The position numbers and the translations under genes were made by a program. From Halobacteriales archaeon YIM A00013 (lineage in GTDB: Archaea > Halobacteriota > Halobacteria > Halobacteriales > Haloarculaceae): a DNA stretch of 64,000 bases. This document shows, piece after piece, positions 818 through 59,206 of the stretch; positions within the stretch are counted from its first letter, which is position 1, and every line of letters starts with the position of its first letter. The stretch lies in the NCBI GenBank assembly GCA_025041195.1, contig JAKCFM010000001.1, positions 186,001 to 250,000 on the forward strand, written 5' to 3'. The notes under the pieces are model-generated. The model was not told where the DNA came from and searched no databases. It saw nothing but the letters and a program-made list of their open reading frames with translations.

Positions 818-1237
818 GGCCTCAATCGCTGGCCAACTTCTTCTCAGCACGTGCTCGTTTCAGTGATCCACGCTCTAAGATCGTTGATGACGGTTTCTGT
901 GACGTTCCCACCGAAATAGCAAATTAGATCAGAGTAAGCGAAGCCAACAACGAACCTTCCCTAAATTCTCTGTTGCCTTAGTCCATATTCTAATCGGTGG
1001 ATGGAATCCCACAGCCAATCACGAGCGACCAAACGGCGTCAGACCTGCGCTAATGAGTTAATACGAAAAAATTCATAGCGGGCACAATTGCGTGTGACAC
1101 CCCTGCAGTGCACGAGGCCAGCGCATCCCTCGTGCAATTAATCCATGAACCACATGTGGTATAAATCTTATGAACTTATTTTATTAATTTTATATTTTAG
1201 ATGAAACTATTTGCTAAAGGGCTATCACTGACGTTGC
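818..1237. other. A+T-rich intergenic segment with palindromes and an orphan TATA box
   Basis: No convincing gene is seen in these 420 bases. At 1109-1136 there is a perfect 9-base inverted repeat (TGCACGAGG / CCTCGTGCA) with a 10-base loop. At 1149-1160 there is a perfect 12-base palindrome, ACCACATGTGGT, whose last base is also the first base of the TATA-box-like TATAAAT on the + strand (1160-1166). A very short reading frame follows at 1201-1245 (MKLFAKGLSLTLLS) that looks like the beginning of a signal peptide but stops after 14 codons. The segment marks the change from core genes to an A+T-richer accessory stretch. Confidence 0.55.
1149..1166 (+). promoter_or_regulatory. Perfect palindrome abutting a TATA-like box
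   Basis: ACCACATGTGGT reads identically on both strands and shares its final T with TATAAAT. A protein bound here would compete with TBP/TFB assembly, so it has the geometry of a repressor operator. The only + strand frame behind it is the 14-codon 1201-1245 peptide; the next real gene on that side is on the opposite strand. Function is inferred from position only. Confidence 0.4.
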
Positions 1238-1691
1238 TCAGTTGAGGAGCACCGCCGCTAAATGCGGTCGCTGGAGTCTGAATCCAGCCACTGTGTACTG
1301 TGATAGTAGAACTTCTTCACGATGAAGTCTCTCCTCAATGGATTCAATGGGTTGACCCCTGAGCTGGGCCTCAAACGACTCTATCAGATTATCATCAGCG
1401 ATTACCTGCTCAAGGGTTCCACCCTTACTCTCACTAAATTGATATATAATACTATCTTCAAACAGCAGTCGTCCTGTGGTATTTCCGTCTTCTTTGATGA
1501 TCGACCGACCTTGCGGCTGAGGTGGGCGATCAATTAAATTTGGAGGTATTGACTGGTGGAACATGACCCGACACCGACGACACGATACCTCTGTTGTATG
1601 AGGTCCACGCTGTCGGATTCTGAGGGCATCCGTTAGATTAAACGGGTATTCGCAATCCGGGCAGACAAAACCTAGTGGGGGAACTATTCAT
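1238..1691 (-). pseudogene. Small zinc-ribbon protein gene interrupted by a one-base frameshift
   Basis: The main open frame (from 1564 down to 1238) begins in the middle of a protein. Reading upstream in that frame gives CPDC and CRRC motifs, a complete four-cysteine zinc ribbon, but no start codon before a stop. The natural start is the ATG at 1691-1689, which overlaps the TGA of the upstream gene as ATGA and lies one frame away. Removing one base from the run of five Cs (five Gs at 1677-1681 on the given strand) joins the two into a protein of about 150 residues beginning MNSSPLGFVCPDC. The rest is acidic and glutamine/glutamate rich with no recognised domain. Either this is a genuine frameshift (decay or recoding) or a homopolymer sequencing error. 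Function unknown; the neighbours are also small cysteine-pair proteins. Confidence 0.6.
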
Positions 1692-2050
1692 GAAATCTCC
1701 TTCAGGATATCTCCAATTATATACTCAAATTGGTCGTTTCGAAACCACTGCTCGTCTCCGATTGTGGATTTCAGATGTACACCAACTGAACGATTCTCCA
1801 TTGGATCATAAAGCTGATCGATTTTGAGCCCTGCCTTTCTAGCCGGTCCTGGTGTTCTGTTATTGAGGATTGTCCACCTGTACCCTTCAGATCCTTTAAA
1901 TCTATCACCGATCGCATAATTTACAACAGGCATCAACTCCACTGATCCCCAGAGCTGTTTTCCGCAATTTCCACATTCAGCCTCGATTTCAACCACCGAT
2001 TTATCCAACTTGACATCACTAATTCTTTCGGCCTCGTGGTCACAGGTCAT
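1688..2050 (-). CDS. Hypothetical zinc-ribbon-like protein (120 aa)
   Basis: No family is recognised. The N-terminus has a CDH pair followed about 25 residues later by CGNC, a plausible zinc-binding knuckle, and the remainder (RWTILNN, DQLYDP, EQWFRND) is globular and moderately charged without membrane segments. A longer start at 2068 is possible, but the ATG at 2050 is preceded by GGAGG with six bases between, so I use it. That start overlaps the end of the upstream gene (ATGACCTGTGA), and its own stop overlaps the ATG of the following zinc-ribbon gene. The three genes therefore look translationally coupled. The A+T content is higher than in the flanking core genes. Function unknown. Confidence 0.6.
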   Translation of the reverse strand: MTCDHEAERISDVKLDKSVVEIEAECGNCGKQLWGSVELMPVVNYAIGDRFKGSEGYRWTILNNRTPGPARKAGLKIDQLYDPMENRSVGVHLKSTIGDEQWFRNDQFEYIIGDILKEIS

Positions 2051-2279
2051 TGATTGCCTCCTGGTCAATCACGACGATCCAGTTGCAGCCAATACATCGA
2101 AATACCGTGTTTTCGAAATTCCTTGGATTGCCATTAAGGGGGGTCCGACAACCAAAATGAGGGCAAACTGCTGCACCAAATACAGTATCATGGTTTTCAA
2201 CCATCGGGTGGTCAGTTGTAATCGTTCGGCAGCGATGCGCTTCGCTGATTTCTGTTCTGATAGTGTCACTACTCATTGT
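2040..2279 (-). CDS. Hypothetical zinc-ribbon protein (79 aa)
   Basis: First of the three overlapping small genes. The protein contains CPHFGC and, about 20 residues on, CIGC, which together form a four-cysteine zinc ribbon in its C-terminal half. A longer frame reaches 2384 and would add a hydrophobic N-terminus, but its extra residues look like translated promoter DNA, so the ATG at 2279 (MSSDT) is preferred; there is no clear ribosome-binding site for either. It overlaps the next gene by 11 bases. The role is unknown; zinc ribbons of this size in haloarchaea can be nucleic-acid or protein binding, which is only a general expectation. Confidence 0.5.
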   Translation of the reverse strand, partial: TMSSDTIRTEISEAHRCRTITTDHPMVENHDTVFGAAVCPHFGCRTPLNGNPRNFENTVFRCIGCNWIVVIDQEAINDL

Positions 2280-2562
2280 CAAATTCTTCTGGAGGGATGG
2301 CCCGGCATGATCCACCACCAATATGATTGATACCGAGATTAGCATCCAAATTGGCGGATACTGACAAATTATCACACGATTCATTTCGGATTGGTACCGT
2401 CATTCTTGTTTCACTATCCTACACTCGACGGTATAATACAAAAGTATTTCCTAGCAATTCTGAACATTAGAGTATATTTGGCGATATAGTAGAATTTGAG
2501 AAATAACTCTAAATATTCAGTCTACACACAAAATTCTTCAGTGTGGTTGTCATTGTCCCAAT

Positions 2563-3528
2563 ATGGCCACGCCTCCGGAGTATCCGAGTCAAGCCATCAT
2601 CAAGGCTGGGGAGATTACCCAATCCTTCAAACCAAAACGACTAGCCTCATTGGCATTTGTGGAAGACAACACCTTAGAAACACAACGAGAGATAGCAACG
2701 GCTCTTGATTGTTCCCCTCCAACGGTGTCGAATCATCTCAAGATGTACGCCGAGCTTCCGATCCCAATAATCAACCGGTCAGGACCGTCAATTACTCCGG
2801 CGGGTCATCAGCTCATAGGTTATCTAAATGATTACATGGCTGAACTCGGGACAGACTTTGATACTATCGACTGGAAAAACCCCGATGACTTGGCTACGAT
2901 CAATGAGTGTCTAGTTCCCCTCCATAACTCGCGCGGACCATTGCTATCTCTTGTTATCTATTCTATTGGGGTTCGAAATTCAGCTGGAAAAACACTTGAT
3001 CTCTTGCATGCTCCAGAACCTGTACGTATCTCCCCTGTCGTCAACGATGTGAAAAACATCCAACAGAAGAGAGGAGAGACAGCTTCTCGCGAACAAATTC
3101 GGTGGCGTTTAACCAATTTAGAGAACGCCGGATGCATCACAGTTAGCGACAAGACTATCTCAATCACTGATAAAGGGGAAGCCCAGGTTCGGCTTTTCGA
3201 ACATATTCTGGGTCTCCTAGAACATGACAGTGAGGACGGTGACCCATATATTGAATCACAGCCAAATCATGCTGCATCGTCCAATAGCATCTCTATAGAT
3301 GATGGAATCCCAATTAACTTTGAAGTTAAATCTAATGCATCCTTTGTACCAGAGTATCAGCTAGCAGATAATGTGTCCATTGCACTCAAAGAAACAATGA
3401 CCGTGGACGAATTTGTAGAGATAGCGGCTCAACTCCGGAGACAGTACCACGGAAATGAACAAATGCAATTACGGTGGCTTATCCAAGAGCAAGAAAGCGA
3501 ATTGGAAGATCATAAGTTATTAGAATAG
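2563..3528 (+). CDS. Winged-helix transcriptional regulator with two HTH-like regions
   Basis: A 321-residue protein with a helix-turn-helix near residues 45-65 (TQREIATALDCSPPTVSNH is a typical recognition pattern) and a second winged-helix-like region near residues 165-215 (REQIRWRLTNLENAG followed by a short beta wing and ITDKGEAQ). This double arrangement recalls haloarchaeal MarR/PadR-like regulators, though no specific family is identified. The C-terminal third is acidic, with a helical segment rich in Q, R and E. A TATA-like TCTAAATATTC lies about 50 bases upstream. The gene converges on the unknown Tat-signal protein gene, overlapping it by 19 bases tail to tail, so it could regulate neighbours of the A+T-rich segment. 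That link is inference. Confidence 0.7.
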   Translation: MATPPEYPSQAIIKAGEITQSFKPKRLASLAFVEDNTLETQREIATALDCSPPTVSNHLKMYAELPIPIINRSGPSITPAGHQLIGYLNDYMAELGTDFDTIDWKNPDDLATINECLVPLHNSRGPLLSLVIYSIGVRNSAGKTLDLLHAPEPVRISPVVNDVKNIQQKRGETASREQIRWRLTNLENAGCITVSDKTISITDKGEAQVRLFEHILGLLEHDSEDGDPYIESQPNHAASSNSISIDDGIPINFEVKSNASFVPEYQLADNVSIALKETMTVDEFVEIAAQLRRQYHGNEQMQLRWLIQEQESELEDHKLLE

Positions 3529-4997
3529 TTCGTTCGTTCCCGATTAAGAACTTGATACCATCCGTTTCCTTCGCCACCACGCCTGAAATTTCCACGTTTC
3601 CTGAAACCCAGGATCTCTGGATCAGGGATAGAGACTGGTTGAAGTCGGCGTTGAAGCTTTACCGCTCTATGGTAAATCCCATCTTCATTATATCGATGAT
3701 GGGGGTCCATTTTGACAGTCGCCGCAGTAAACAGTGCAGTTGGAGAGAATCGGTCGGATTCAGCAAGTTCTCGAAGATCTCGTGAATAGTTAGATAGATC
3801 TGCAGCTCGTTCAAGTTGATTTACAGTATCAGTAAGTGAAGTTGTAACTTCTTCAGTTTCTTCGATTAAACGCTCAGCTTGATATTGAATATGTTCAGGT
3901 CGATTGTCTTTTGATTCCTTCTCAAGATATCCGAGAACTTCTTGAGTTTCCGCGACGATCGAATTGGGGTTCCAACGTTGACCGTTTAATCCGTGCGTTC
4001 CTGTTAGGAGATTCGGGAATAGAGGGGCGGCTAATCGACCCCCGAGAAGATACCAATCCTCATTCTGTATTCCAGTTGTTTCCTTCGCAATTGTAGTTAT
4101 TTTAGATAATTTTTCATGAATTATATTGGCTCGTTTCCGCGATGGTCTCACAATTTGATGGATTGTGTTACTATTTGATGATACTCTAAGTTTATCCTCA
4201 TCAATGTCGAACTTACTTGCTTGAATAATTTTACTAATACCCTCTTCCTCGCCCTGGCCAAGTACTCCAACAATATTACTATCGGAGTGTCGATCAAGGG
4301 AAGCTCTCACTTCTAAGGCAGCAATATATTGCCCAAATGCGTCCTTATTAAACTGCCTCGGATCTTCAACTCCCTTACTCATCTTTCGGTGATAGGTGGA
4401 TAGCTCTTGACGTTTTTCAAGATTTATTCCCCAGCTGCCGAGTGCAGATCTAAGCGACCGTTGATAATCTCCCCTTGTAAACTTTGAGACGTTATCAAGC
4501 GCAATCTGTGTGGACTCACGATTACGGTGGTCTGGAAGGTTCTTCAACTTCGTTTGATATCGGTGTAGATTCCGTTTCTGAGAGGCAATCGAATAGTGTC
4601 GAGTATAATCAATTTCCTGAATTATCCCCCGCTGAATGAGAGTTTCAGTGATTGACTTCCGTATTTGAACTTCTCGGTTATCGCGTTCTCTCACAGCTTG
4701 CCCTCGTAATCGTTCGAGATCGTAGATGTCAATTAGAATTAATGGGGGGTTAGATTGGTTAAGAAGAGTTGAAAGATGGATAAATAATGTTGTGAAAGCC
4801 AGACCAGGAAGCGTGACGTATGCATTTCTTTTCATAGTTGTATGTCTTCTATCGATACGTTGCTTTTGTCCTCCTTCAGTATTATCGATATATGATTTTG
4901 TCTCTGCGAAAATTGTTCGCCTAAGCTGAGTGATGCTATTTGCACCTATAGTTCCGCCCAAAAAATTTTTGATCAATTCTCTGCGAGTTGATACCAT
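3510..4997 (-). CDS. Unknown-family protein with twin-arginine start (copy A, 495 aa)
   Basis: The protein begins with an adjacent arginine pair at residues 5-6 followed by a short apolar stretch (LIKNFLGGTIGANSI), resembling a weak Tat signal. I recognise no catalytic family. It clearly matches the product of 53214-54689 along its length: a PG-containing apolar segment, DLERLRGQ versus DWDRLRGR, GIIQEIDY versus GLIRCVDY, QRSLRSALG versus QESLRRTLD, the identical LSNYSRDL near residues 410-417, and a C-terminal RG-F-R...WYQ ending. The middle is helical, charged and partly coiled-coil-like. Base composition is much A+T-richer than that of copy B, suggesting separate histories or import. A TATA-like TCTATATTC lies about 30 bases before the ATG. 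Possible roles such as a surface or secreted protein are guesses. Confidence 0.7.
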   Translation of the reverse strand: MVSTRRELIKNFLGGTIGANSITQLRRTIFAETKSYIDNTEGGQKQRIDRRHTTMKRNAYVTLPGLAFTTLFIHLSTLLNQSNPPLILIDIYDLERLRGQAVRERDNREVQIRKSITETLIQRGIIQEIDYTRHYSIASQKRNLHRYQTKLKNLPDHRNRESTQIALDNVSKFTRGDYQRSLRSALGSWGINLEKRQELSTYHRKMSKGVEDPRQFNKDAFGQYIAALEVRASLDRHSDSNIVGVLGQGEEEGISKIIQASKFDIDEDKLRVSSNSNTIHQIVRPSRKRANIIHEKLSKITTIAKETTGIQNEDWYLLGGRLAAPLFPNLLTGTHGLNGQRWNPNSIVAETQEVLGYLEKESKDNRPEHIQYQAERLIEETEEVTTSLTDTVNQLERAADLSNYSRDLRELAESDRFSPTALFTAATVKMDPHHRYNEDGIYHRAVKLQRRLQPVSIPDPEILGFRKRGNFRRGGEGNGWYQVLNRERTNYSNNL

Positions 4998-5060
4998 GGC
5001 AGATTATAGCACAAGAATATAGATAATGATAGCGGTAATCAAAGCAATAAGCAAATGTAT

Positions 5061-5067
5061 TTTATAC
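5061..5067 (+). promoter_or_regulatory. TATA-like box of the methyltransferase gene
   Basis: TTTATAC lies 27-33 bases before the ATG at 5094. That spacing puts transcription initiation almost at the start codon, so the message is probably leaderless, as is common in haloarchaea. Confidence 0.5.
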
Positions 5068-5093
5068 TTTTAGAATAATAATGTAGATGTTCA

Positions 5094-5762
5094 ATGGGAT
5101 CGATTGTTTCAAAAGATATAACTAAATTTTTACAAAGAGTAGGCCCAGATCCAGATAGCGTAATAAAGGACATGGAAACGTATGCTGACGAGAATGACTT
5201 TCCAATCGTTGGTTCAGCTGTGGGCGGATGGCTTTGTCAACTCACACAGCTCAGTGAATCTCGTTCAATATTTGAGTTTGGGTCGGGCTTTGGCTATTCT
5301 GCCTACTGGTTTTCACGCGCTCTTCCCGACAACGGTCAAATCGTACTCACGGACCACGACGCACAAAATCTCAACAAGGCAGAGACGTTTTTCGATCGAA
5401 GCGATTTCGAGGGCAGCGTCCATTTCGAGCACGGCGACGCGATTGAGACGGTCCAACAGTATAGCGGTCCCTTCGACATAGTACTACTCGATAACGAAAA
5501 AGATCGCTACAAAGAGGCATTCGAATCTGTTCGCGAGAAAGTCGCTCCCGGTGGCCTCGTCATCACAGATAACTCAATGATGACGACAATAACGGTTGAC
5601 TTTGAAGAACTACACGCCCTTGTGCGAGGAGAGGACATTGAGACGCACAAAAACACAACAGGGATTGCTGAACTATACGAAGCAATTGGACGTGATCCAG
5701 CTTTCGACACTACTGTACTGCCAATCGGCGATGGTGTAGCTGTTAGCTACAAAAACAGCTGA
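5094..5762 (+). CDS. SAM-dependent O-methyltransferase family protein
   Basis: A 222-residue class I methyltransferase of the caffeoyl-CoA/catechol O-methyltransferase-like group. The SAM-binding glycine motif is FEFGSGFGYSAYW near residues 61-73, followed by the acidic residues of motif II (VLTDHDAQN), motif III (HGDAIET) and motif IV (DIVLLDNEKDRY). The later GGLVITDN stretch matches the usual post-motif strand. The substrate cannot be told from sequence. The N-terminal third is A+T-rich like the upstream accessory segment, whereas the later part matches the core genes. It stands alone, with its own TATA-like box and a downstream hairpin. Confidence 0.85.
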   Translation: MGSIVSKDITKFLQRVGPDPDSVIKDMETYADENDFPIVGSAVGGWLCQLTQLSESRSIFEFGSGFGYSAYWFSRALPDNGQIVLTDHDAQNLNKAETFFDRSDFEGSVHFEHGDAIETVQQYSGPFDIVLLDNEKDRYKEAFESVREKVAPGGLVITDNSMMTTITVDFEELHALVRGEDIETHKNTTGIAELYEAIGRDPAFDTTVLPIGDGVAVSYKNS

Positions 5763-5773
5763 GATCGAGAGCG

Positions 5774-5797
5774 ATTGTCACCGCGATAGGTGGCAAT
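5774..5797 (+). terminator. Hairpin after the methyltransferase gene
   Basis: ATTGTCACC (5774-5782) pairs with GGTGGCAAT (5789-5797) to give a nine-pair stem including one G-U, with a six-base loop, 12 bases after the stop codon. No long T run follows directly, so it may be a transcript-end or stability element rather than a classical terminator. Confidence 0.4.
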
Positions 5798-5930
5798 TCC
5801 AAGTATACCACGTCCGGTGTTCCCACATCTCATATATTTTATCCAAGCAAAATTTATTTTAATTTAATGGGGGCGGTTGAAAGGGTCGCGTTCAGAAGGC
5901 TTTTGATCACACGGAGCTTCAGGTTTAATC

Positions 5931-53012: not shown

Positions 53013-53213
53013 TGAAACACTGAGAGTATCGCCACGGTTGGTGACATAGCTTGTACTAGTTTCAACTAGGATCACTTCGAGATTCACCGACAAACCTATC
53101 CGAGTAGAGTGTGGTACTAGATACCATGATAGCAATCTGTAGCCAGCAGTTCTCCATTGAACCGTGTATAACTACCAACAAAACTAACAGAAAACCCGAC
53201 CCAATTCCGTCCC

Positions 53214-54689
53214 ATGACACAGACACGTAGATCGATACTCGCACATTTCGCTGGAGCTATCGCTGGAGCTTCCGTTATTGGAACGTCAGGAGGCGTATCG
53301 TCCCGAGGAACTAAATCCTATCAAAATGAAGTGGGTGTCTATGATAGTATGACTATCCGACACACATCAGCTCCCGACATGTATCTCGCCCCGCCTGGTT
53401 TCTCGCTCACTTCCTTTATTATGAATGTCCCACAGCTGCAGTGGGAAACTGGAACAACGCCGGTCGTAATAGATCGATACGACTGGGATCGACTCCGTGG
53501 TCGCATCGTGACACGGCTACAGGGTGATATCGACTCACCACACCAATCGCACTCCCAGCGGCTGGGACTGATGCTGACGCAACTTCGACAGCAGGGATTG
53601 ATACGGTGTGTCGATTATCGGGAATATTATCCACAGTCGATTCAACGACGGAATATCGCGCAGATCCGTGCGGTCCTTTCGTCACTCGACACCCATGAAA
53701 AACAGCAAGCGGCAGTTGCTGCTGCAAAGGGATACGGTCGTTATGGCTTTGGCTCGTATCAGGAGTCTCTTCGGCGCACCTTGGACAATCTCGACCAGTA
53801 TCTAGATAGTCGAAAACGAATCTCGAAAGAGGCAGATCGGCTCTCTCGGGGGGTTGGTGACGAGGACCTGTGGCTCGAACGGGTGATGAATCAGCACATG
53901 GCTGCGCTGTCTGTCCGCCAGTCGCTCGAACGCAAACGAGGTGTGACTATCAGCTGTCTCGGTCAAAACGAAATTGCGGCCGTGGCGTCGCTGATCGACG
54001 ATCCTCCATCGAAGCAGTTACCGCCAACGCTCCGAGACATAGATGGCACTCTGACGGACACCGCCGTGGAGTTCGACATCGATGACACCACAAAGCACCG
54101 GGAGGTTGCCGATCAGATCAGCAAGATTGCTCAGGAGATTGTTGGAATTGATAACGACCATTGGTTCGTGTTTGGGCCGCGGTTGGCGATGGTCGAAAGC
54201 GGAGACACCTACACTCGTGCCAGATCGTACATTAGATTTGGATCGGCAGAATCGATCGCTTCTGAGGCCGAACAACTTCTTTCGCGTCTCAACGATCGGC
54301 GTGAGGAAAACAGGTCAGCCGAGTTTATCAATCACGAGGCAGAGTGGCTCGCAGAGCAGAACCAACTGGATCCAATCGAGCGACGCCACATTGTGAACCA
54401 ACTCCGTGCGGAGACGCGGCTTTCAAACTACTCCCGAGACCTCAAGGCCCTTGGAAGCGAATACTCCGACGGAGCGAAAGCTGTAGTAGAAAGCGTAGTG
54501 ATGGATCCAGTGAATAATTACGTGTCGAATGATATCTTCAAAGAGACCATAGACCTCCTCCGAACCCTGGAACCAACAACGATGACTGACGAGCAACTCG
54601 AATCTTTCCTCTACAGGGGTTCGTTTCGGGTCGGCTACGACGACTGGGACTGGTATCAGGATCCACAGCGACAACCGTCTATCTCGTAG
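53214..54689 (+). CDS. Unknown-family protein with twin-arginine start (copy B, 491 aa)
   Basis: Second copy of the unknown family seen at 3510-4997, about 48 kb away and on the other strand. Residues 4-22 (TRRSILAHFAGAIAGASVI) are a good Tat-type signal, with twin arginine at 5-6. Shared blocks with copy A: an apolar PG segment near residue 60, DRYDWDRLRG near 90, QGLIRCVDYREYY near 125, SYQESLRRTL near 180, then IDNDHWFVFG, LSNYSRDL and the closing YRGSFRVG...DWYQ. No enzyme motif is recognised; the middle contains R/E-rich helices. Base composition is intermediate, lower in G+C than nreA. Neighbours are unrelated core genes, so function cannot be read from context. Confidence 0.75.
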   Translation: MTQTRRSILAHFAGAIAGASVIGTSGGVSSRGTKSYQNEVGVYDSMTIRHTSAPDMYLAPPGFSLTSFIMNVPQLQWETGTTPVVIDRYDWDRLRGRIVTRLQGDIDSPHQSHSQRLGLMLTQLRQQGLIRCVDYREYYPQSIQRRNIAQIRAVLSSLDTHEKQQAAVAAAKGYGRYGFGSYQESLRRTLDNLDQYLDSRKRISKEADRLSRGVGDEDLWLERVMNQHMAALSVRQSLERKRGVTISCLGQNEIAAVASLIDDPPSKQLPPTLRDIDGTLTDTAVEFDIDDTTKHREVADQISKIAQEIVGIDNDHWFVFGPRLAMVESGDTYTRARSYIRFGSAESIASEAEQLLSRLNDRREENRSAEFINHEAEWLAEQNQLDPIERRHIVNQLRAETRLSNYSRDLKALGSEYSDGAKAVVESVVMDPVNNYVSNDIFKETIDLLRTLEPTTMTDEQLESFLYRGSFRVGYDDWDWYQDPQRQPSIS

Positions 54690-54820
54690 CTGGGGGCACT
54701 AAGTTTCGGAAACTGGGGTTCTATTGTCATTGGTCACCTCCAGTTCGAGTGTGAGATTGAGCACTGTGTCTCTGAAATCGATCCGGTGATTCAGCAAGAA
54801 GTCTCTACAATGGTTTCGAC

Positions 54821-58060: not shown

Positions 58061-59206
58061 ATGACGGAAGATGACCATGGCCGTCCGGCAACCGACAGGG
58101 TACACAACGAGCTGTCACCGGGGATGAGTCGCCGCCGCCTGCTGTCCTCGCTCACCGGGCTTGGATTCTCGCAGGTGACTGCCCAGTTTTTGACACAGGA
58201 CGATCTTGCGGGGGCCGCATCGGACCAGGTGCCGATCGTATGTGGCATTCACCGTGACGATCAAAATTCGGCGTACGATACGCACACTCGAAACGTTCCA
58301 GCGGACTGGTACAACGACTATCGCCACGCGACGACGGTGAAAGAGAATCTCGAACCGAAGCTATCGAAACAGTCCGGGGTCGTGAGCGTTGGCGTAGAGC
58401 CTGGCGAGCTCGGTGGGGATAACTCCCGGCTCGTCGTTCGGATGGCAGAGTCGAAGATCAACCGAATGATGGGTAACGTGCCGACGGAGATAGAGGGCGT
58501 CGAAGTCGACGTCGAATCGGTCTCTGGCTACCGCCGACTCGGCTGTCGCAATGATCTCCGGAACTGGTCGTCCTCGCGGCGGACGATCCACGGCGGCTAT
58601 GAGGTACAGGGCAACGCCTCCGCACCGATCGGAACGACCGGCGCAGCCGCGTTCAAGAACGGCCAACGCTATCTCGCCACCTGCCAGCACATTTTCAGCG
58701 GCAAGAACGTTTCGGGTGCCACATTAAAACATCCGAACGGGACACCGCTCGGCACAGTGAAGATGAATCGTTGTATGGAAGATTATGCGATGGTGAAGCT
58801 CAACGCCGACTATCGCGTTGACCGGTCGATTCGACACTCCGGATTCAACGGCATAACCGGCCATTTCACCTACGATGGGCTCGGTCGGCTCAAAAGCCAG
58901 GGCGCACGGACACAAAAGGTCGGTCGAACGACCTGCCGGACGAGCTTTGCGAAAATTCAGACGACCGCAGAAACGATCTACACGGCCCCTGGCTGTGTCC
59001 CAAAGCCGTACTCAGTGTTTCACAAGGATGATTCCGGTGGGAGCGACCTCAAGCGAGGAGACAGCGGCTCGATCAGCTTTCACCAGTCGCCGAACAATTC
59101 AAACAAGTGTTGGCTCGTGAGCTTCATCAACTACGAGGACAGCAACACGAACGACGTGTTCGGCATCGGCATGTATCGGCTGAACGACTTTGGGTTTGGC
59201 TTCTAG
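58061..59206 (+). CDS. Tat-exported trypsin-like serine protease
   Basis: A 381-residue protein. MSRRRLLSSLTGLGFSQ near residues 22-38 is a Tat signal, so it is probably exported folded. A propeptide-like region follows to about residue 180. The chymotrypsin-fold domain contains His210 in ATCQHIF, Asp241 in MEDYAMVKL and Ser335 in KRGDSGSIS, a complete triad in the correct order and spacing. Several cysteines (near 61, 158, 209, 239) may form disulfides. Substrate unknown. It converges on the CPBP protease gene with a four-base overlap. Confidence 0.85.
   Translation: MTEDDHGRPATDRVHNELSPGMSRRRLLSSLTGLGFSQVTAQFLTQDDLAGAASDQVPIVCGIHRDDQNSAYDTHTRNVPADWYNDYRHATTVKENLEPKLSKQSGVVSVGVEPGELGGDNSRLVVRMAESKINRMMGNVPTEIEGVEVDVESVSGYRRLGCRNDLRNWSSSRRTIHGGYEVQGNASAPIGTTGAAAFKNGQRYLATCQHIFSGKNVSGATLKHPNGTPLGTVKMNRCMEDYAMVKLNADYRVDRSIRHSGFNGITGHFTYDGLGRLKSQGARTQKVGRTTCRTSFAKIQTTAETIYTAPGCVPKPYSVFHKDDSGGSDLKRGDSGSISFHQSPNNSNKCWLVSFINYEDSNTNDVFGIGMYRLNDFGFGF

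Follow-up and report, generated by a model that had tools for sequence, protein, structure and literature searches.

The haloarchaeal protein family c0 and its co-evolving winged-helix partner

What is the role of a protein of about 490 residues that resembles no characterised family, begins with a twin-arginine motif, and is encoded twice within a short stretch of a haloarchaeal genome? The question is raised by the window analyzed here, 64,000 nucleotides of contig JAKCFM010000001.1 of Halobacteriales archaeon YIM A00013 (positions 186,001 to 250,000), which holds two such genes, copy A and copy B of a family that we call c0. The initial annotation took them for a family of two members and a candidate surface or secreted system. 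This reading overlooked a 12-copy expansion, a paired regulator, insertions, and the concentration of the family in one genus.

An undescribed family concentrated in one genus

Copy A (3510 to 4997, minus strand) was delimited by its open reading frame and translation, the family alignment, and the Tat-type motif. Its 495-amino-acid product starts at an ATG with MVSTRR, Arg5-Arg6 being the twin-arginine start already read at residues 5-6, and consists of a twin-arginine leader (residues 1 to about 50) and a core of ~440 amino acids. Copy B (53214 to 54689, plus strand, 491 amino acids) has a typical twin-arginine leader and lacks an adjacent copy of c1, the partner gene described below. The block-wise kinship proposed for the two proteins was recovered by BLASTP, with 29% identity and an E of 3e-53 in an alignment spanning almost all of their length, and both contain an identical LSNYSRDL; hence, their likeness is not due to chance. 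The A+T-rich setting of copy A was also correctly recognized, since its segment has 42-44% G+C versus about 57-61% across most of the window (the gene itself has 41.9% G+C and a GC3 of 0.325); copy B is likewise A+T-rich.

No recognised domain had been noted in either protein, and profile searches found no credible match to a characterised family. Pfam gave no credible match for 29 members and none for copies A and B, for which NCBIfam was likewise negative or at chance level; searches with these two copies and one leaderless member were negative or at chance level in PHROGs and gave chance-level scores at most in PADLOC, and nothing convincing emerged when the PDB was searched with a profile. 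Homologs in viruses and phages were looked for and not found. A match of two members to PF25215 (HVO_B0008_C) was rejected, as in the one inspected it covers only the leader.

The genome from which the window derives (3.73 Mb in 3 contigs) carries 12 copies of c0 rather than two (7 of them on the largest contig, the other 5 on one of 256 kb), and these share no more than about 28-41% identity with copy A. Among the 146 genomes of the taxonomic family, c0 was found in this genus only, in 6 out of 7 genomes with 0 to 12 copies each. When 391 genomes of the class were searched with a profile, G335 and G332 were added, and a plasmid search added Haladaptatus halobius and Haloplanus sp. GDY1, the copy of the latter corresponding in place to that of G332; outside the genus, therefore, copies are rare and partly plasmid borne. 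Within the genus, G041 lacks c0, which is thus dispensable and not universal there. G041 and G040 have PIN matches at identical C1 coordinates and are probably nearly the same strain; of the two, only G040 carries c0, in a contig of 427 kb.

Between orthologs, c0 has a dN/dS of 0.06-0.14, indicating purifying selection; broken remnants are found in G044 and G042. In G044, short remnants lie close to intact copies (L032 and L033), one of them within a HAD-like reading frame. In most copies checked, in-frame stops appearing in the search tables turned out to be the gene's own stop codon, where the match ends, and were discarded as signs of decay, while the copy at L021/L051 looks truly broken.

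Both window copies are lineage-specific insertions. Copy A belongs to an insert of ~4.9 kb (about 907 to 5849) whose flanks are about 380 bp apart in Actinarchaeum halophilum YIM 93972, a sister genome to that of the window and a member of the same genus, and are also close in G044 and G043. The insert of copy B (53026 to 54819, ~1.8 kb) contains that gene alone; its flanks are joined in YIM 93972 and lie 95 bp apart in G044 and 124 bp in G043. Since the sister genomes share the empty state, we infer insertion rather than loss. Inspection of the ends of the copy B insert revealed neither terminal inverted repeats nor a target duplication. Altogether, c0 is an undescribed haloarchaeal protein family, mobile and concentrated in one genus. 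Streptomyces-like hyphae and spores, with little known of their regulation, have been reported for A. halophilum YIM 93972 (PMC10067837). Transitional mutants of this strain have a mutation upstream of ORF_1717; an S-layer anchor by which to place the ORF numbers relative to the c0 cassettes was sought and not found.

Linkage to a winged-helix regulator

Examination of 26 c0 neighborhoods showed a sole near-constant partner, c1, present in 23 of them. In the window, c1 (2563 to 3528, plus strand) is convergent with copy A, the 3' ends overlapping by 19 bp. Weak HTH matches and an alignment of 22 c1 proteins show two winged-helix segments, making c1 a tandem winged-helix regulator. At leadered loci c1 is convergent with c0 (tail-to-tail), the 3' ends often abutting or overlapping by a few bases, and in the leaderless clade it belongs to the same cluster, usually at a non-adjacent position. 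Outside the genus, the two genes are immediate convergent neighbors in Haladaptatus and G335 and share one cluster in Haloplanus. Hardly any genome without c0 has a full-length c1.

The two proteins have also diverged together. Pairwise c0 and c1 distances are correlated over 24 loci (r 0.85), over the 21 loci left when orthologue duplicates are removed (r 0.69), and within the leadered group (r 0.82, 14 loci), a correlation that none of 5000 permutations reached in any of the three sets (0/5000 each); c0 and TFB distances, in contrast, are uncorrelated (r -0.16, 12 loci). Linkage and co-evolution are thus properties of c0 and c1, and because of them we take the two genes as a unit. TFB genes, PadR-type regulators, and small Cys-rich proteins are recurrent neighbors too, at fewer loci than c1. 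TFB was considered as a core part and rejected, as it lies beside 16 of the 26 loci, yet its distances track neither c0 nor c1. Near copy B, the TFB gene was also rejected as part of the cassette, being, like the PadR gene there, an ordinary host gene that is syntenic in the sister genomes.

The remaining genes of the copy A insert are accessory. Three encode small proteins on the minus strand that have no Pfam match: c9 (2040 to 2384; Cys-rich, zinc-ribbon-like; in 5 of 26 loci), c4 (1688 to 2068; Cys-containing; in 8 of 26), and c5 (1238 to 1564; in 8 of 26, with longer homologs containing Cys pairs). An O-methyltransferase-like gene (5094 to 5762, plus strand; Methyltransf_3, E 1.3e-20) adjoins copy A, and a homolog adjoins c0 in L049 too. 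Beside several copies there are genes for an O-methyltransferase, an SDR, a Nudix protein, a 5'-nucleotidase, a type 2 isopentenyl-diphosphate (IPP) isomerase, or an aspartoacylase-like protein; they vary between loci, and many of the 26 loci have none.

Some neighbors deserve mention in their own right. The type 2 IPP isomerase gene directly adjoins a leaderless c0 in two genomes (L041, 6414-7475, and L055, 8961-10022; E 2.6e-119 in L055). A protein of ~484 amino acids, c6, adjoins a larger c1 in leaderless cassettes (L040, 12522-14066; L041, 4492-5946; and L049, L050, L054, and L055); it has no Pfam match and keeps an HExxH motif (HEREH/HEHEH), being possibly a metalloprotease paired with the regulator. 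A 640-amino-acid protein beside c0 in L055 (5445-7367) weakly resembles defence proteins of the metallo-beta-lactamase type (best E 5.5e-8). Finally, the window contains at 58061-59206 a 381-amino-acid reading frame with a Tat-type start (MSRRRLL) and no Pfam match, whose GDSGS and His-containing motif resemble those of trypsin-type serine proteases.

Promoter-like elements lie ahead of both genes. That of copy A, CGCTATCATTATC (5022 to 5034, minus strand), is at -37 from the leader ATG and differs by 3 mismatches from MRACAANATTAWC; that of copy B, CAACAAAACTAAC (53176 to 53188, plus strand), is at -38; and that of c1, CACAAAATTCTTC (2527 to 2539, plus strand), spotted by eye among c1 upstream sequences, is at -36. 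With up to 3 mismatches allowed, 13 of 25 c0 genes have the c0 element near position -38 relative to the leader ATG, versus a mean of 2.6 and a maximum of 7 in shuffles, a test that is somewhat generous because the pattern was drawn from the tested sequences themselves. The kept distance favors transcripts that include the leader. Two further proposals were rejected. A genome-wide regulon of the c0 element found no backing in the counts at up to 1 mismatch (93 versus 97 in the control; the only two perfect matches in the genome are both c0 promoters), and a cassette-specific match of c0 and c1 promoters was not significant, own pairs being no more alike (2989 of 20000 permutations).

Leader peptide, candidate internal start, and export

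A strict Tat-type motif is present in 16 of 32 c0 members, both window copies included, versus 8 of 282 neighboring proteins. The uncharged stretch that follows is weakly hydrophobic in copy A (15 residues, mean hydropathy 0.62) and more clearly so in copy B (24 residues, 1.58). The leader is absent from one clade of 10 members; hence, the Tat signal is not family-wide. As judged from the family tree, the leader appears to be ancestral and to have been lost once, in that clade; the tally on the tree is three changes, to be read knowing that the Haladaptatus leader lies outside the start used and that one YIM 93972 copy has a TGA in its leader.

An in-frame ATG just before the core, Met55 of copy A (4833 to 4835, minus strand), is a candidate second start. 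Of 22 leadered members, 16 have a Met 8-10 residues ahead of the core proline, the background frequency being 2.3% per residue (binomial P 8e-15, a value that ignores shared ancestry), and the leaderless members begin at the position of this Met in the family alignment. RefSeq places the start of one YIM 93972 plasmid copy at the internal Met and that of another at the leader. In the copy with the TGA (L059, 10036-10050), the stop falls within the twin-arginine leader (MRQT*RSL), with the core and the promoter-like element intact, so that nature has provided a test case for the internal start. Synonymous divergence in the leader is low (dS 0.06 and 0.24 versus 0.44-0.46); as proof of an internal start this was rejected, because other genes show a similar 5' dip and the signal is thus uninformative. 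From the position of the conserved Met, we infer that a short second product may be made.

The explanation that we tentatively consider best is that c0 and c1 form a mobile regulator-partner pair or switch, possibly with exported and cytosolic forms of c0. In this scheme, c1 would control both genes by way of the atypical promoter-like elements that precede each of them by about 37 bp, and c0 would be its cognate partner, which senses or acts and thereby sets the activity of c1. Leadered members would be made as a long, Tat-exported form from the leader start and a short cytosolic form from the internal Met, and the leaderless clade would make the cytosolic form only. The pair would travel by way of plasmids and islands, in many cases together with accessory genes that vary, and in this genus it would have multiplied into parallel, diverged switches.

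It is rather unlikely, in our view, that c0 is simply a Tat-dependent exported or surface protein and c1 its dedicated transcription regulator. The frequency of the Tat-type motif, its apparently ancestral state, and the promoter-like element at a kept distance from the leader ATG all agree with such a role, and both window copies do resemble haloarchaeal Tat substrates in having (S/T)RR followed by an uncharged stretch. Unlike such substrates, c0 has a clade that lacks the leader, conserves an internal start, and is not acidic, which is unusual among haloarchaeal proteins (pI 9.6 in copy A). The hydrophobic stretch of copy A is weak, and none of the 26 neighborhoods has an envelope or secretion gene as a recurrent neighbor, the partner being a DNA-binding regulator instead. 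Of the export reading first proposed, the twin-arginine-type leader on both window copies stands, but the surface or secreted system is not supported as stated; it is possible without being the best-supported reading. Export of c0 is partly supported by the predicted leader, an export tag found in most copies but not essential to the family.

Alternative roles and known systems

In a conflict or addiction module, an unlikely identity for the pair, c0 would be harmful or protective and held in check by c1, which would explain the spread on plasmids and islands. The patchy distribution (0-12 copies, several on plasmids), the clean insertions, the remnants in G044 and G042, and the A+T-rich genes are in line with such a module, and toxin-antitoxin systems are likewise two-gene mobile units with a DNA-binding member. 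However, c0 and c1 are convergent rather than co-directional, c0 is large (about 440-500 amino acids), and no defence or toxin-antitoxin model matched above chance (in PADLOC, c0 and c1 scored no better than E 0.009). Furthermore, copy B has survived with no c1 beside it, and old orthologous pairs are under strong constraint. Even if the pair were a conflict module, it would represent an undescribed family on haloarchaeal plasmids and islands.

The regulator-partner reading could be extended to a new haloarchaeal signalling system in which a single gene gives exported and cytosolic forms of its protein from two in-frame starts, every copy is tuned to a winged-helix regulator of its own, and about a dozen switches operate in parallel, a proposal that we regard as quite improbable. 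If it were true, signalling switches would have multiplied in relatives of hypha- and spore-forming archaea.

More improbable still would be that c0 is an enzyme making or modifying a small molecule, perhaps a signal, through an N-terminal Asp cluster, with c1 responding to the product. The initial annotation had suggested structure prediction as a means of naming the family; it gave a Rossmann-like N-terminal model, but no significant fold match that names it. The full-length model had a pLDDT of 37, and copy A from Met55 (208 residues, 54-261), modelled with two relatives, reached a pLDDT of 63 and a pTM of 0.57, with a Rossmann-like alpha/beta arrangement. In this model and the alignment, the invariant D90 and D93 and the near-invariant D130 (with Y131) are near predicted strand ends, which speaks for this reading. 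Fold searches with the pLDDT 63 model gave nothing below E 0.17, the weak matches including PIN domains, cyclodipeptide synthases (CDPS), and TyrRS. The CDPS matches spanned the whole length of the N-terminal domain (E 0.2-0.9, TM-score 0.24-0.31), and tailoring-type enzymes lie near some c0 copies. Unlike in CDPS, the nucleophile position is not conserved, the Ser expected after Pro-Gly being Ala in copy A, and membership was rejected, as PF16715 matched none of 29 c0 members at E 0.1 (it had no match in the window's genome either, in a weak search whose controls gave none). A PIN nuclease was also rejected: the SMG6 PIN domain resembles c0 over 85 columns (Foldseek probability 0.77), with an Asp at a strand end, but hhalign against 18 haloarchaeal PIN proteins gave a probability of 0.34% and left the Asp region unaligned. 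The enzyme genes beside several copies would suit an enzymatic role, yet they differ between loci and are lacking at many, and a secreted leader is ill suited to a tRNA-dependent enzyme.

That c0 is the mobilising protein of a small element, a new transposase-like family, is very improbable: it would account for the copy B insert of 1.8 kb, a single gene whose flanks are joined in the sister genome, and there are 12 dispersed copies and a chance-level PHROG transposase match for copy B (E 0.015), but the copy B junctions show no visible terminal inverted repeat or target duplication, the copies are highly diverged from copy A, and neither co-evolution with c1 nor a leader peptide is expected of a transposase.

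We therefore return to the mobile regulator-partner pair as the preferred, if tentative, explanation. Against it stand copy B, which is alone and has no c1 next to it; the promoters, which are no more alike within a pair and for which a wider regulon was sought and not found; the generic nature of the low leader dS; the absence of c0 from G041; and the weakness of the fold model. A large family of co-evolving regulator-partner pairs, concentrated in one genus and lacking known relatives, provides a concrete set of genes to test in a genus for which hyphae and spores are reported, and the conserved internal start would allow dual localisation to be tested in an archaeal protein.

Multi-copy developmental cassettes that combine a DNA-binding regulator with a partner are known from Streptomyces, in the WhiJ/BldB/AbaA type. 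The likeness, which claims neither a sequence relation nor a developmental role for c0 and c1, lies in many diverged, small regulator-plus-partner cassettes in hypha- and spore-forming organisms. The haloarchaeal pair differs in its convergent arrangement and in a partner of about 490 amino acids that often carries a Tat leader.
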